Positions 1 through 27,526 of a DNA stretch of 38,063 bases are shown here, piece after piece. The DNA is taken from positions 1 to 38,063 of the IMG/VR virus record IMGVR_UViG_3300038701_000484, one strand, 5' to 3'. Both the position numbers and the translations under genes were made by a program. The notes beneath the pieces were generated by a model. It did not search any database, was not told the DNA's origin, and was given only the letters and a program-made list of their open reading frames with translations. Every line of letters begins with the position of its first letter. Positions within the stretch are counted from its first letter, which is position 1. This DNA comes from a virus.

Positions 1-29
1 GGCAATGAATTATATACATTGTTAACTAC
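1..29 (+). other. Right half of an integron attC-like site, cut by the window edge
   Basis: The bases ending in ATACATTG and followed by GTTAACTAC (21-29) match the right arm and R' core box seen again at 292-311 and 912-930. GTTAACT fits the R' core GTTRRRY in all but the sixth base. The cassette that starts at base 22 carries the exact reverse complement, GTAGTTAAC, at 177-185, as expected for an integron cassette. The left arm of this site lies outside the window. Confidence 0.6.
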
Positions 30-180
30 TGGGCAAACTGTATGGTTAGACAAAGACCTTGCAAACAGTAGTAAAGTAGAAGTAGTTAGCCAAACACCAA
101 AAAGAATGTTTACAACAGTAACAAGCAATGGCGGATTAGACTCTTGGGAAGTAATGACTTATAGATTAACCGCCTTGTAG
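1..180 (+). CDS. Cassette 1 hypothetical protein, 5' end uncertain
   Basis: The frame is open from the first base to the TAG at 178-180 (59 codons). I do not recognise the protein. It reads as plausible coding sequence, with alternating polar and hydrophobic residues and the C-terminus SWEVMTYRLTAL. The cassette itself begins at base 22, so the true start is either TTG at 19, which overlaps the recombination point, ATG at 106, which would give only about 24 residues, or a start upstream of the window. The stop codon lies inside the R'' core box of the attC site that follows, a compact arrangement usual for cassettes. Function is unknown. Confidence 0.45.
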   Translation, partial: GNELYTLLTTGQTVWLDKDLANSSKVEVVSQTPKRMFTTVTSNGGLDSWEVMTYRLTAL

Positions 181-311
181 TTAACGTACTTGTATATGAT
201 TTTGTAGGCATAGACAAGCACTAAATAACGATTAAACACTTACTTAAAAGACAAGAAATAAATATTGAAATATTAACCAACTGCCTATAAATTATATACT
301 TTGTTATATGC
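177..311 (+). other. attC-like recombination site of cassette 1
   Basis: The outer left box GTAGTTAAC (177-185) is the exact reverse complement of the cassette's first bases (21-29). The right box is GTTATATGC (303-311). Inner arms 192-210 (GTATATGATTTTGTAGGCA) and 282-299 (TGCCTATAAATTATATAC) pair almost throughout, with one unpaired base and two wobble-type differences. Extrahelical bases and a long variable loop are hallmarks of attC sites, which are recombined as folded single strands by integron integrases. The length, 135 bp, is in the range of long chromosomal attC sites. The pairing is seen directly; the integron role is inferred. Confidence 0.68.
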
Positions 312-335
312 TGGGCGGTTTTAAAAGACAAAAAG

Positions 336-488
336 ATGAAAATAATAGACAAGATTTTAATTATTGCAATGGGATTACTTATATGTTTTAAAGTAAGTTG
401 GGAAACACCACTGCCTTTGATTGGTTTAATACCAATTATTTATGCAATAATTTATTTAGTAAGGTGTGGTTTATATGAGGATTTGTAG
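336..488 (+). CDS. Cassette 2 small membrane protein (50 aa)
   Basis: The ORF starts at ATG 336 and encodes 50 residues with two hydrophobic stretches: residues about 5-17 (DKILIIAMGLLICF) and 26-42 (PLIGLIPIIYAIIYLV). It is therefore probably an inner-membrane hairpin. The layout (short N-terminus, glycine in the first helix, cysteine just after the second) loosely recalls DUF2892-type small membrane proteins, but the match is weak. It is the only gene between the core box at 303-311 and its exact complement at 493-501, so it is the payload of cassette 2. No promoter is seen; cassette genes are usually read from upstream. Confidence 0.55.
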   Translation: MKIIDKILIIAMGLLICFKVSWETPLPLIGLIPIIYAIIYLVRCGLYEDL

Positions 489-492
489 CCTT

Positions 493-537
493 GCATATAA
501 CATTTCTTGGCTATGATTAGTAGCGTGGGTTAATAAC
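493..537 (+). other. Degenerate or shortened attC-like site of cassette 2
   Basis: GCATATAAC (493-501) is the exact reverse complement of the first bases of cassette 2 (GTTATATGC, 303-311), so it is the R'' box. A candidate right box, GTTAATAAC, lies at 529-537. The long paired inner arms of the neighbouring sites are missing; only a short GCTA/TAGC pairing (511-524) is visible. The site is either minimal or has lost its right half together with the start of the next cassette. Confidence 0.45.
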
Positions 538-551
538 TAAAATTTATAAAA

Positions 552-800
552 ATGAAACTAACAGCAGAAGAATTAATAAATAAGCACTTAGAATTAGTAG
601 GCGGAAAATATCAAGGCATAAAAGACGGGAACGTTTACGAAGCTTGTATAAACGCAATAAATGAAGCTATTAATTATAGCCAGTGTTGTAAAAGCGATAG
701 CGAGCAGTTAGTTTGTGAAAAATGTAACGGAACTGGTGGTTATAGCTACACTGATGAAATAGGTTTTAACTACAAGACTTGCGAGTGCCAAACAAACTAA
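552..800 (+). CDS. Cassette 3 protein with a zinc-finger-like CxxCxGxG motif (82 aa)
   Basis: The N-terminal half looks helical (MKLTAEELINKHLELV, then NVYEACINAINEAI). The C-terminal third carries CEKCNGTGG followed about 20 residues later by CEC, so four cysteines could bind one zinc ion, as in DnaJ-type or rubredoxin-like knuckles. Similar small proteins with a helical head and a CxxCxGxG tail occur in Bacteroidota accessory DNA and phages; no function is known to me. The gene lies between the degenerate site at 493-537 and the attC-like site at 805-930. Confidence 0.6.
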   Translation: MKLTAEELINKHLELVGGKYQGIKDGNVYEACINAINEAINYSQCCKSDSEQLVCEKCNGTGGYSYTDEIGFNYKTCECQTN

Positions 801-804
801 TTGT

Positions 805-930
805 TTACAACGGACGAGTGTATGAGCAGTAGCCAACACATAAGTAAGTAAATAATAAAAAAAATAAATATTAAACAACTGCAATAGTAAAAACGCCTAA
901 CGGCTATTGCTTATACACATTGTTAGGCAC
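805..930 (+). other. attC-like recombination site between cassettes 3 and 4
   Basis: The left arm at 818-834 (GTGTATGAGCAGTAGCC) pairs with the right arm at 902-918 (GGCTATTGCTTATACAC): 15 of 17 positions are complementary and the other two are G-T wobbles. The site ends with the R' box GTTAGGC (922-928), a perfect match to GTTRRRY. Its own R'' box, around TTACAAC (805-811), is degenerate. A second inverted pair, GCCTAAC (895-901) with GTTAGGC (922-928), lies at the right end. Architecture and spacing match the site at 177-311. Confidence 0.65.
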
Positions 931-938
931 AGTTAATT

Positions 939-1172
939 ATGTTACTAAAAATATATAAATCGATGCTTGAAACAGCACAAAACCAAAGAATACCAAAATA
1001 TATAGAAATGACCTTCCATATAGACAAAAACCAGAGTAAAACTTTTTGGGAAGATGAATCATTAAAAAACGAACACGAAATGTTATTTGATGAGTGGGAT
1101 AATAAAGGTGATAGCAGATATACAAAAAAGTTTTACGGTGTTACATACGCTATCCAATTTAATCATAGATAG
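939..1172 (+). CDS. Cassette 4 hypothetical protein (77 aa)
   Basis: This is a short, charged, soluble protein beginning MLLKIYKSMLETAQ, without recognisable motif. It lies between the core box at 922-930 and that box's exact reverse complement GTGCCTAAC at 1180-1188, so it is the single gene of cassette 4. The ATG sits only 9 bases after the core box. The opposite strand is also open over most of this stretch, but the cassette boundaries and orientation favour this reading. Function is unknown. Confidence 0.55.
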   Translation: MLLKIYKSMLETAQNQRIPKYIEMTFHIDKNQSKTFWEDESLKNEHEMLFDEWDNKGDSRYTKKFYGVTYAIQFNHR

Positions 1173-1179
1173 CCTTATT

Positions 1180-1210
1180 GTGCCTAACACGTAATAAGAA
1201 CACATAAACA
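1180..1210 (+). other. Left half of an attC-like site, truncated at the phage junction
   Basis: GTGCCTAAC (1180-1188) is the exact reverse complement of the start of cassette 4 (GTTAGGCAC, 922-930). The next bases, ACGTAATAAGAACAC, should be the left arm, but no complementary right arm and no GTTRRRY box follow before the HTH gene at 1222, nor inside it. The array therefore stops in mid-site, and the boundary with phage-like DNA lies at about 1189-1215. Confidence 0.5.
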
Positions 1211-11713: not shown

Positions 11714-14700
11714 TATTTATACTTTTCGATTAATTTCTCGTACTCTTTACCTTTCTTCTTAAGTATCTTATCACCATACCTAACGACAGAGGCTGCTTCT
11801 GAAGGAAGAAAACCTGCATTGTATAGTGTTTGAATGAAACTCAAGGACAATAGTGCTGTGTCACTGTTAGGGTCATACTTGCCAGTGGTTTCTCTACCCA
11901 TAAACTCACTAGTGTATTCACCTGTGATGGATGACTTGATAATGTCATAGTTGTCTATAATTTTCTCTGGGAGAATACCATACATACCGAAATCCTGTAA
12001 CACAGACTGACCAGGAGAGTCACCATCAAACAGTACAAATGGTTCTTCAGGCTTGACGCCTAACTCTTTCTGTAAAGGAGACAGTTCCTCTTCAGACTGT
12101 AAAGACCTAAGCCCTTTGTTCATTAAAGTTAAAGTAGGCTTGTCTAGTACAGGTATTGGAGATAAGTAATCAGAAACAATGTAAGTAGCCTTACCTTTTA
12201 TCAAGTTATTAATCCTCTTTTCTCTTTCCTCTTCAGGCTCGTCATATCCTAGTATAGAAGAAATAGCTTCGAAAATACCATAACTTATTGATAAAGATAT
12301 ACCATGGAAAGCTATTACTTCTGCCGCTGTAGCCCCTAAGGATCTTAAATGAAACAGCCTCTCTTCTGTCGACATGTTTTTATTAGTAACATTTATAATG
12401 TCGGAATGAAGTCTCATTTTTTGATTAATAGCAAAGTTAGCGAAAGGCATTACTGTCTTTCTGATTAGCTGAGGAAAGAAGGAATTATCTTTCATAAAAA
12501 GACCTTGCATATCATTATCTGACGTGTTTTGGTTACGAGCAACTTGTGTGTTAGCGTAGTCAGCTATTTCTTGGTCTACTTTGTGATTCTCCCAATCTAT
12601 CTTAGCTGTTCCGTACTTTTTCTTGTGCATTTGCTTATAATAGGATACCCATGATACTTTCGCTATATATACATCTGGATTAGACAAGAAAGTTGTCATC
12701 CACTTGTCACTTACACTTTCAACGTATTGACCTATCTTATTAAGTACTTTTGCGTTACCTTCAGATATGCTTGTGTTTATTTTATTTAAAGAAGAAATAG
12801 CTCCCATGTCACGATTAGATACATCTTGACCTGATTCCGAAAGTATTTTTTGTATGGCTTGAGCATTGTTAAAATATTCACCAATATCTAATCTACCTGA
12901 ATTTATAAATGTATTCAAGGCGACTGGAAGCACCTGTTTTATTGGTTGCGTGATACCACCTAAAGCTTTTGAGGCTCCAAGCCTAGATAATCTATCTAAC
13001 GTCTTAGAAAGAGCTTTAAGCTCTTTCTCGTCGACATACGAAGACTGCCTTTTATCGTTAACGTATCTCGTTATGATTTTTCGCGCTAAATCGGCATCTT
13101 CATCATTGGAGAAAGCGTTATTAAAATCTTTAGTGTCTAATGCCCCTTGTATTTGTCTAACAGTAGCGGCTGTGTCAACATCAATATTAAGACTTGTGAA
13201 CTGATTAGCCATATTCACGTCAAAGTTTAAGTCTAAGTAATGAGTTGTTGTTACTTGACCGTTTATCTCTGTTTTAGGCAAGGAGTTGCTTATTTTAGCT
13301 TTCATCAAGTTGCCTGACTCCTTCTTGTACAAATAGTTGTCAAGATTAAATGTCTCTATTAAATCCTTAGACTTTTTAGGAACTCCTGCTACCTTTTTGA
13401 AAACTCTAGGTGTGTAGTTTTCTTCTTGATTTAATAACTTATTGTAAACAGACTCACTTACCTCTCTGTACTTGTCGTAGTCTTTTTTGAATGCATCAAC
13501 CCAAAAATCAACAGCTTTTAAATTATCTTCGCTCATTCTAGATCTAACCTCTTCTACGCTATTAGCATCACTTAATAACTCATCATATACTTCTTGATAT
13601 TTCTGACCTTTTTTTACCTCTCTTTTGTCTCTTGATTTCAGTAATGACTCATAGCTTTGTTTGATCATGTTTTTCATGTACTCAAACTGAGTAGATGGGT
13701 CTAGGTCTGAGTCTAATGCCTCTCTGTATATAACAGACAACAAACCTCTGCTGTATATGTTTTTATCAGAATGGAAATCTTTAGATTTCTTAAACATATC
13801 TAGGTAACTATTAATCACAAAGTTTGACTTGTTTTGAGATCGGTTTGCTTGCTGTTTCATTTTACTGAATCCAATAGTGTCAAGGAATTTTTGAGAGTTC
13901 TCTACACCAAATATAGACTCAAACATTACATTAATACTAGTAAGATAACCTCCCTTTACTCTGCCGACAGATTTACTCCAAAAAAACCTAAGAGGCCTAG
14001 CTTTTCCTTTAAAGTTAGACATTCTTCTGGCACCCATGGCTGTAGAAAGCATTGTCTCCAAGCCTCCGTAAGTACCATTAGATATCATGTTCATTATACC
14101 AAAGTTTACATCTGACAAGAACTCTAAATTAAGACTGTTCTTATCTATGTTAAGGAATAATCCCATCAAATCTTTAGCTTTGCTGTTGAAGTTTATTTTT
14201 TGTCCAGTGAAAGGATCTTTCCCTGTTTTTAGAATTTGTTTTATGAGTAATCTGTTTATGTCAAAATTCTTGATCATTCTAGCCCTGGCAATCTTAAGCC
14301 TTTCAGTATCTACTACACCTGACTCTTTTTGAGATTTTATTATCTCCATAACCTCATCATAGGTCATACCATCAATATCGTTTTCTTCTTCGAACTTAGA
14401 CACAACCTCTTGCTCTATTTTTTTTCTTTGAGATTGCAGTGCTTTTTCAGTGTAAGAATTAACCTCAGACAAGCTGATTCCTTTTTGAGACAATCCTTCC
14501 TTAATTTTCTTGCCAATCTCAATATAAGCGTCAATATCACCTACCATAGATGGGTTTATTTTTCCATACTCTTTAGCGGCACGGTGAATATTTACGTCTA
14601 TACTTTTATTTCCTTTCTTGGCCCTAGCCCTTAGATTATTAGCTTCAGATAGTTTTTCTCTATAATTAGACTTTGTCATTACGTTTTCCATGTAATTTAA

Positions 14701-25916: not shown

Positions 25917-26834
25917 CTACTTAATATGTTTATCTCTCCCTCTTAAAGGCATCAGTAATGCTCTAGGGTCTAGATTCGTCATTCTTATCTTGGCGTTATT
26001 AAGTAATGCTCTTCTTTTGTTTTTAAACCGCCTAACAATATACTCAGGGGTGTCTCTTTTTGTGGAAAGCACTGCATAAAGAATGTAATTATATAAGTAC
26101 TCTTCAAACAACTTATTAACAACAATACTGTCATCATCTCCTTTCTCCATTCCGTCAGAGACATACTCTAAAATAACATCCTCACCAGCCATTGTAGAGT
26201 CTAGATTAATAACACCATCTCTTTTGTTTATTTTAAAAGTAGGGTTTGCGTTCGCTGTAGATGTGTTTAATCCAAATCGGTGACCTACAGGGTAATTGAA
26301 GTACCAATTACTGTCTACATAGTAGCCATAATTACCATGCTGTTGTCCGTCACCTAAATACTTTGTTTTTTGAACCCCATCAAAACGATCGTGATCAAAA
26401 AGAGATGTACCTGTTAGTACATTACCCTCAGCGTCAAACAAAACATTACACTTATTATCCTGCAAGTACCCAGTAGCGAAGTTAGTGTCTTCATTCTCTA
26501 CCATAGGCCTTAGCTCGTTATTCTTATATAAAGATATTCTAACGAAGCTAACAAAGTCAGGAGGTAGGATAACAGATAAGTTATCACAAACAGACAACTC
26601 TATAATCTTGGTCTCCTTCATTGCGTCATAGTTTAGTTCTTGAATACCTCTTTTTGCATGAAAAAGTACCTTGAATCTATCTATCTTATTTATCAACTCA
26701 TCCTCTCCAACATACATTAACATGAAATTATTAACCACATCGTGAAGACTAACATACTGATAACTACCTAAGTTTTTATCTTCTGGTAAAGTCTCTGAGT
26801 TTGTATAATATTGATAATCAGTTAAATATGCCAT
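25917..26834 (-). CDS. Head-tail connector (ring/adaptor) protein, 305 aa
   Basis: Features include a helical N-terminal part (SLHDVVNNFMLMYVGEDELI, KVLFHAKRGIQELNYD), a strand segment (ELSVCDNLSVILPPDFVSFV) with the PPDFV turn common in such proteins, a variable middle, and a C-terminal arginine-rich helix (VRRFKNKRRALLNNAKIRMT). This is the usual plan of ring/adaptor proteins between portal and nozzle in crAss-like phages. It shares one base with the gene before it and lies 2 bases before the nozzle gene. Confidence 0.65.
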   Translation of the reverse strand: MAYLTDYQYYTNSETLPEDKNLGSYQYVSLHDVVNNFMLMYVGEDELINKIDRFKVLFHAKRGIQELNYDAMKETKIIELSVCDNLSVILPPDFVSFVRISLYKNNELRPMVENEDTNFATGYLQDNKCNVLFDAEGNVLTGTSLFDHDRFDGVQKTKYLGDGQQHGNYGYYVDSNWYFNYPVGHRFGLNTSTANANPTFKINKRDGVINLDSTMAGEDVILEYVSDGMEKGDDDSIVVNKLFEEYLYNYILYAVLSTKRDTPEYIVRRFKNKRRALLNNAKIRMTNLDPRALLMPLRGRDKHIK

Positions 26835-27526
26835 TATTGTTCTTGTTGAAATTCTTTATTCTCTTCATTGTTTCCGAAACTAAACACGTCGGCCTCTCTT
26901 ATAGATAATCCTGCATACTGACATATTTTAGCTATAATAGTAGGCTCAAAACTTTTAGGCAACTCAAAATCTTGGTAATCAGGTGATGATTGATCAAACA
27001 TTGGCTCTCCTTGCGATAATTCTATGAATGTCCATTTCGGATCCTTAGGGTGTCTTATATAGTGACACGATAAACCACTAGTAATAGTTTCTGGATAAAC
27101 GCTCACCTTACTCCCTGTTAATGTATATGCTGGGTATTTTGTTGTAGGAGACGTGAGATTAGATGACAGTAACTTTAGTATCTTAGAGTTAGTTACTTTC
27201 TCTACCTCTATGCCATTATACCTGACCTCATCTAAAAGATATACGTCTGATGGTTTTGAGAACTCATTATCCGATATATTCTCAAGATTGGCGACCTCAG
27301 AAAAAATCTCTAAAACCTCTTTTATTCTTTGAGACATATCCGAATAATCTGTATTCGCAACTTTCGAGTTGGTCTTATTTATAAACCTATTATGCTTATA
27401 AAAAAAATCCTCCATAGCATCCAACTGAGCTTGCTTAGCAAAAAGGTTGAAATCCATTACAGGTAAATAACCGTAATTGTTTTTATTAAGTATAGATAAG
27501 GTTGTATTCCTGACGCTATTAATCAT
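26834..27526 (-). CDS. Head-tail connector (ring/adaptor) protein, 230 aa
   Basis: The N-terminus NKNNYGYLPVMDFNLFAKQA and the following helix with DFFYKH match the start of a ring protein that in crAss-like phages precedes a second ring protein and the nozzle. The middle has RYNGIEVEKVTNSKILKLLS and a PAYTLTGSKVSVYPETI strand pair; the end is helical and Gln/Glu-rich. It probably sits on the portal ring. The call rests on pattern and gene order, not on a search. Confidence 0.62.
   Translation of the reverse strand: MINSVRNTTLSILNKNNYGYLPVMDFNLFAKQAQLDAMEDFFYKHNRFINKTNSKVANTDYSDMSQRIKEVLEIFSEVANLENISDNEFSKPSDVYLLDEVRYNGIEVEKVTNSKILKLLSSNLTSPTTKYPAYTLTGSKVSVYPETITSGLSCHYIRHPKDPKWTFIELSQGEPMFDQSSPDYQDFELPKSFEPTIIAKICQYAGLSIREADVFSFGNNEENKEFQQEQ

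Follow-up and report, generated by a model that had tools for sequence, protein, structure and literature searches.

A cassette array at the left end of a podovirus contig

We analyzed a window of 38,063 bases that has the same extent as the IMG/VR contig from which it comes (IMGVR_UViG_3300038701_000484). The window encodes the proteins of a Flavobacteriia podovirus, including a terminase, a portal, virion proteins, a Sak-like annealing protein, and an exonuclease. The terminase is 61.7% identical to that of MW202828, a circular genome of 60,850 bases, and about 40% identical to those of Flavobacterium phages; Cellulophaga phages match as well. Since the related genomes are about 60 kb long, at least 20 kb of this phage genome is missing from the contig. 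The window gave no match in an Rfam scan at gathering thresholds and no tRNA in a tRNA scan.

Base 1 of the contig falls within a cassette array that occupies positions 1 to 1188. The array holds four cassettes, one more than a sequence-only reading of this DNA had counted, because the site at 495 to 691 had been overlooked. We located attC-like sites with a covariance model, R1, which was built on 28 diverse virus sites (alignment A2) with the window excluded. The features are as follows.

1 to 20, + strand: L' (3' arm) of the attC-like site of cassette 1; partial R1 match at 1 to 27 (model positions 103 to 129, E = 0.063), the remainder lying beyond the contig end
1 to 185, + strand: cassette 1, 5' end missing; R' at 21 to 34, open frame from base 1 to a stop at 178 to 180, R'' ending at 185
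179 to 309, + strand: full attC-like site, running from R'' of cassette 1 through L'', loop, and L' to R' of cassette 2; R1 59.4 bits, E = 3.5e-10
186 to 501, + strand: cassette 2, a unit from AAC to AAC; ORF 336 to 488 (50 aa, hydrophobic), R'' at 493 to 501, end pair 303/501 complementary at 12/14 nt
495 to 691, + strand: full attC-like site with a long loop; L'' 509 to 524, L' 666 to 681, R' from 685; R1 26.8 bits, E = 0.0024
502 to 811, + strand: cassette 3, a unit from AAC to AAC; ORF 552 to 800 (82 aa, CxxCxG zinc-ribbon-like), R'' ending at 811
805 to 928, + strand: full attC-like site; R'' to 811, L'' 818 to 834, L' 902 to 918, R' from 922; R1 103.8 bits, E = 1.9e-19
812 to 1188, + strand: cassette 4, a unit from AAC to AAC; ORF 939 to 1172 (77 aa, orphan), not in the relative L154
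1174 to 1188, + strand: naked R'' (CTTATTGTGCCTAAC), 3' end of the array; L''/L' arms do not follow; 10 nt exactly, and 12/14 overall, complementary to 922 to 935
1189 to 1212, + strand: candidate attachment site (ACGTAATAAGAACACATAAACAAT), putative attI equivalent; a similar sequence follows the naked R'' in L154, ahead of a homologous HTH gene
1222 to 1494, + strand: HTH regulator gene (weak HTH match), directly downstream of the array

Three exact 9-nt inverted pairs link positions 21 to 29 with 177 to 185 (GTTAACTAC), 303 to 311 with 493 to 501 (GTTATATGC), and 922 to 930 with 1180 to 1188 (GTTAGGCAC). They lie exactly where the sequence-only reading had put them, and each extends beyond its exact part to 12/14 complementary nucleotides. 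The remaining 36.7 kb of the window contains four matches of at least 9 nt at a spacing of at most 1 kb, so about 0.1 would be expected per 1.2 kb. The same reading had seen attC-like architecture in two of the intervening sites and had proposed a covariance search; R1, our own model, recognized three full sites in 1.2 kb. Besides these and the partial match at 1 to 27, R1 matched the reverse strand of the best site (E = 0.17), with everything else in the 38 kb at E of 4.8 or more. The match at 805 to 928 is not fully independent because part of the R1 training set was fetched with an 18-mer from that site; the sites at 179 to 309 and 495 to 691 lack this 18-mer. A simple arm finder without spacer asymmetry did not detect the window sites. 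The reading had seen no integrase, and there is no integrase gene within the 38 kb: neither an integron integrase (TIGR02249) nor the recombinase described below is in the 38,063-base record, outside which at least 20 kb of the genome lies.

The site at 495 to 691 pairs GGCTATGATTAGTAGC (509 to 524) with GCTATTAATTATAGCC (666 to 681) around a loop of about 140 nt, within which ORF 552 to 800 starts. This site is real: its arms pair with both conserved G.T stem positions present, and L154 and Tenacibaculum phage JQ share its layout with arms that differ in sequence yet still pair. We had considered 495 to 530 as a deleted half-site and dropped this when the far arm was found at 666 to 681. The cassette 3 ORF starts in its own loop, crosses R' at 685, and ends before 811, and it is therefore whole only as a unit bounded by AAC. 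Homologues of cassette 3 are present in L154 and phage JQ. A search of the cassette 3 and 4 proteins in isolate phages gave no match, and neither did Pfam and PHROG searches with the cassette 2 ORF. The DNA of the 805 to 928 site is 86.7% identical to that of Cellulophaga phage phi18:3. Elsewhere in the window, an inverted repeat at 27384 to 27503 with 120-bp spacing and AAC/GTT ends lies within ORF 26834 to 27526; R1 does not match it, and it is probably due to chance.

Stem covariation and distribution of the sites

The sites carry the R''/L''/L'/R' order and the RYYYAAC/GTTRRRY boxes, and at many of them start codons lie in the hairpin loop. Across the 28 virus sites, 97.4% of stem cells are paired versus 80.5% in shuffles, two-sided changes number 80 versus 24, and pairing nearly collapses when the arms are slid by one base. 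Folding, which the sequence-only reading had recommended, gave minimum-energy structures for single sites that were, on either strand, no better than those of shuffles. The evidence for the stems is thus covariation, not folding energy. One stem position is a top-strand G.T in 28/28 sites, and a second holds either G.T or A.T. In a set of 74 sites, G.T outnumbers T.G by 143 to 4. Folding with DNA parameters favored the top strand in 69 of the 74 sites, by a mean of 2.5 kcal/mol. From these energies and the G.T polarity we infer that the top strand folds, because the conserved G.T pairs hold there and the bottom strand has A.C mismatches.

The 27-mer GGCTATTGCTTATACACNTTGTTAGGC from the 805 to 928 site occurs in one contig among 84,980 cellular genomes and in at least 29 of 40 virus contigs, which had been fetched with a shorter pattern, in a comparison not normalized for environment. 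A 29-mer scan of the genomes gave no match, and the broader 27-mer scan returned that one contig. Four virus loci (L083, L100, L104, and L116) have other site types, such as GTCTGATGATAAACAATCG...TTGTTTATCATTTGT, after a naked R'' downstream of the last R1 site, and R1 therefore does not cover every site in such arrays.

A XerA-like recombinase linked to the sites in large phages

A tyrosine recombinase of 266 to 287 aa is encoded in 7 of the 40 virus records bearing the site, within about 2.5 kb of it in six and about 23 kb away in the seventh (G014). The family is coherent (49 to 70% identity to its first member; alignment A1), and the XerA type is its closest known family (NF040815, 174 to 195 bits, below the cutoff of 220). 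Against TIGR02249 it scores about 156 bits, far below the cutoff of 265. We rejected the TIGR02249 search as evidence for IntI: it also matches all 14 control genomes, below the cutoff. The recombinase has 33 aa where IntI4 (PDB 2A3V) has 81, so the IntI insertion is absent, and it aligns to XerA and XerD without a gap of that kind. Its catalytic R, K, H, R, H, and Y residues, length of about 270 aa, and missing arm-binding domain are those of the XerA type, and its PDB matches are XerA/XerC-like.

We then fetched 78 virus loci by the recombinase protein alone, 7 of which were the A1 source loci. The core motif of the site matched 39 times in 30 of the 78 loci, always upstream on the recombinase strand, where 0 matches were expected. 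R1 gave 98 matches, 97 of them on the recombinase strand and all of those upstream. Co-oriented upstream sites beside a recombinase of about 267 aa thus occur in dozens of virus contigs of up to 362 kb. Terminase_6N matched in 16 of 50 recombinase-bearing records (13 above the cutoff) and a tail sheath family in 9 of 24 (4 above), and the matching records include contigs of 362, 310, 276, 266, and 195 kb. The hosts of the recombinase and its sites are phages: several of the records longer than 100 kb encode terminase and tail sheath proteins. One contig of 265,845 bases (G009) has 28 sites and more than 20 cassettes, mostly in one block running over the contig ends to the recombinase. The same contig has further R1 sites far from that array, at 193,915 to 194,928 (+ strand) and 244,880 to 245,007.

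A related arrangement occurs in cells. In the Flagellimonas plasmid NZ_CP092416 (L145, 3889 to 5891), two R1 sites flank a dihydrofolate reductase-family gene ahead of erm(F), and the ends of the erm(F) cassette adjoin the site ahead of a xerA gene whose product is 43% identical to the phage recombinase. The Arenibacter plasmid NZ_CP022516, otherwise identical to NZ_CP092416 there, has different DNA. The layout in NZ_CP092416 is a cellular form of the phage layout. Two Acinetobacter plasmids (L148 and L150) have a recombinase annotated beside tet(X3) that is 46% identical to the phage family; R1 gave no match in its vicinity. The tet(X)-xerD module may share its ancestry with the phage recombinase.

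Cassette boundaries and polarity

A dif-like site, TAAC/TATTATATATAC (the slash marking the boundary), lies about 50 bp ahead of the recombinase gene. The pattern AAC, 2 to 5 nt, WTAT was present 35 to 100 bp before the recombinase at 67 of 70 loci versus 38 of 257 control windows. At 17 loci, the cassette nearest to the recombinase is closed by a naked R'' that is the exact complement (8 to 10 nt) of its own R', with an AAC/TATTATATATAC-like sequence right after it. Complementarity of at least 8 nt between a cassette's own ends was found in 42 of 63 cassettes defined by consecutive sites versus 11 of 200 random pairs.

Near-identical viruses have turned over their cassettes at this point. In five sets of loci (L085/L086, L101/L102/L104, L111/L112, L098/L100, and L097/L099), a 700-bp stretch that starts at the site and reaches into the recombinase is 99 to 100% identical, and the left sides are wholly different, with the break at TAAC. 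Two Bacteroidota plasmids that are 100% identical over 6,890 bp to the right break at a like point beside a xerA gene. Of 65 sites, 28 have an ORF of at least 50 aa running over the G/TT boundary, and 1 has such an ORF running over the AAC boundary. The breakpoints, the naked R'', and the ORF crossing counts therefore place the crossover at the AAC of R'', within about 3 nt. It likewise follows from the breakpoints and the crossing counts that the cassette unit runs from AAC to AAC, with its gene reading toward the attachment site. The cassette polarity is the mirror image of that of the classical integron, a layout that gives no naked R'' beside a fixed site. The window shares this geometry.

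The window and other phages without the linked recombinase

The window HTH gene occupies the position held by the recombinase in recombinase-bearing phages, and the candidate site at 1189 to 1212 fits the TATTATATATAC motif poorly. The HTH protein of L154 is 48% identical to that of the window. In L154 nothing separates the zinc-ribbon-like cassette, homologous to cassette 3, from the site ahead of the HTH gene; the window has cassette 4 (812 to 1188) in between, with AAC at both borders. The arrays of L155 and L156 likewise end just before the HTH gene. L154 to L156 come from separate metagenomes.

Complete isolate phages carry the same site class. In phage JQ (L158, 39297 to 40712 and 713 to 4702), the array spans the origin of the 40.7-kb genome. 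In phi18:3 (L001, 2371 to 4310), an array with a DNA methylase cassette has its naked R'' end 33 bp before gp036, the same distance as that from array to HTH gene in the window, and downstream of gp036 lies a tyrosine recombinase of a different type, 428 aa long. We rejected this recombinase (gp037) as the mover, as it has only a weak XerD match and a different domain layout, and rejected gp036 as a homologue of the window HTH protein, to which it has no similarity. A search run without a positive control found no A1 recombinase in the window or in 33 other records, including L154 to L156 and the complete isolates phi18:3 and JQ; the family was found elsewhere by other searches. Its absence from these phages suggests that their cassettes are moved in trans or that the recombinase was lost. 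Phage JQ, with an array and no A1 recombinase, is a cultured model for the case of the window.

Interpretation

We consider it likely that positions 1 to 1188 are the cassette array of a mirror-image integron in a podovirus of Flavobacteriia, with the recombinase supplied in trans. In the mechanism we propose, each cassette would be a unit AAC/L''-loop-L'-R'-gene-R''AAC/, and its circular intermediate would bear one hairpin site, folded from the top strand. The XerA-like tyrosine recombinase would join the AAC of the R'' end to an attachment site of dif-like form, made up of AAC, a 6-nt center, and an ATATAC-type arm. Because R'' AAC is joined to the attachment site, new cassettes would enter at the 3' end of the array. 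This entry point would lie directly upstream of the recombinase gene in large phages and of the HTH gene in the window lineage, with the genes reading toward it. For the window phage, phi18:3, and JQ, an A1-type recombinase would have to be provided in trans, by the host, by a plasmid, or by a large phage infecting the same cell.

On balance, we lean toward a broader view in which Bacteroidota phages, some with genomes larger than 250 kb, operate an integron-like system of their own whose polarity is reversed, with R'' capture, a dif-like site, and a Xer-like recombinase, while smaller phages depend on it in trans and the cassette pool is centered on viruses. Under this view, it would probably be the folded top strand that is captured. 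Some phage sites may also undergo classical recombination, since IntI1 is reported to recombine phage attC sites from the bottom strand (PMC9892861).

The sequence-only reading was right that these are integron-like cassettes with attC-like sites, but its inference that they are mobilized by a classical integron integrase, in the attC layout already known, was not supported. The site class is tied to a XerA-like recombinase that lacks the IntI insertion, the boundaries are at R'' AAC rather than R' G/TT, and the array ends in a naked R'' beside a fixed site. These same observations bear on the alternative that the window holds an ordinary CALIN, whose cassettes came from host integrons and were moved by classical IntI at R' (G/TT) on the bottom strand. 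Published attC clusters in virulent phages, the recombination by IntI1 of 5 of 6 tested phage attC sites (PMC9892861), and the classical box order and box sequences of our sites all fit such an origin. However, the boundary evidence favors AAC over G/TT, the nearby recombinase has no IntI insertion, and the 27-mer of the 805 to 928 site is found in one contig of 84,980 cellular genomes versus at least 29 virus contigs, so we regard this origin as unlikely.

It is also very improbable that misassembly joined host integron DNA to phage DNA at the left end of the contig. The contig does begin within a repeat-like site, a usual spot for assembly breaks, but the arrays of L154 to L156, from separate metagenomes, end just before the same HTH gene, and complete isolate phages have the same site class. 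We give hardly any credence to the hairpins being transcription terminators or repeat elements between phage genes instead of recombination sites. The sites do sit between small genes, and covariation fits pairing in RNA as well as in the top strand, but the ends of each cassette pair across its gene, the breakpoints of turnover fall precisely on AAC, and numerous start codons are located within the hairpin loop, none of which a terminator requires. The AAC breakpoints in near-identical viruses already contradict this explanation.

Relation to known systems

Integrons are known as bacterial platforms that are sometimes picked up by phages, and classical integrons recombine the bottom strand at R'. 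The phage arrays share with them a tyrosine recombinase, one attachment site, hairpin attC-like sites with R'', L'', L', and R' boxes, complementary cassette ends, and mostly small orphan genes in the same orientation. They differ in that phage cassettes are joined by R'' instead of R' (the boundary is not at G/TT) and in that phage genes read toward the fixed site and the recombinase, whereas classical cassettes read away from attI and are expressed from Pc. The classical integrase also has the IntI insertion that the phage-linked recombinase lacks, and the phage attachment site is dif-like.

With three full R1 sites in 1.2 kb, where a CALIN needs at least two attC sites, and no integron integrase in the 38,063-base record, the window resembles the CALINs described in virulent phages by Qi et al. 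2023 (PMC9892861). One of these, Polaribacter phage P12002L, has one R1 site (14499 to 14628, E = 5e-8). As in the window, attC-like sites and small co-oriented cassettes occur there in a virulent-type Flavobacteriia phage with no integrase, and methyltransferase cargo occurs both there and in the window relatives. That study did not describe a phage recombinase, attachment site, or boundary polarity, whereas the window relatives have a recombinase family linked to the arrays, an attachment site that is conserved, and boundaries at AAC. Clusters of attC sites without integrase in virulent phages are therefore already known; the recombinase, site, and polarity seen in the relatives are new.

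The Treponema denticola reverse integron, in which intI lies upstream of the first cassette and attI/attC are joined at GTT (PMC4909258, PMC7691350), also has a recombinase gene co-oriented with its cassettes. Unlike in that system, the phage cassettes are upstream of the recombinase and their junction is AAC. The closest protein family is that of the XerA or integron-like simple tyrosine recombinases (NF040815; PMC8138268). According to the latter source, the integron insertion is not fully conserved within the "integron-like subgroup"; for members without it, we found no mention there of cassette arrays or attC-type sites, unlike the phage loci. Our search of open-access papers turned up no account of arrays of this polarity linked to a recombinase in phages.

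If our interpretation is correct, the folded-site strategy would work with a recombinase that lacks the IntI insertion, which has been held necessary, and in the opposite strand sense. Giant phages would carry their own recombinase, attachment site, and cassettes in inverted polarity, and the swapping of small genes by virulent phages, including DNA methyltransferases, at one defined spot would be explained. The near-identical natural virus pairs can be used to study the reaction.

Cassette cargo

Few of 111 array ORFs, including three from the window, matched Pfam: two N6/N4 DNA methylases, one MT-A70, one GNAT acetyltransferase, one ADP-ribosyltransferase, and one DUF3850. Among the PADLOC matches listed for array ORFs, nearly all were to methyltransferase models. 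Restriction evasion, which has been proposed (PMC9892861), is a plausible role for the array methyltransferases. The JQ array has two DNA methyltransferase genes, and the phi18:3 array has one DNA methylase gene.
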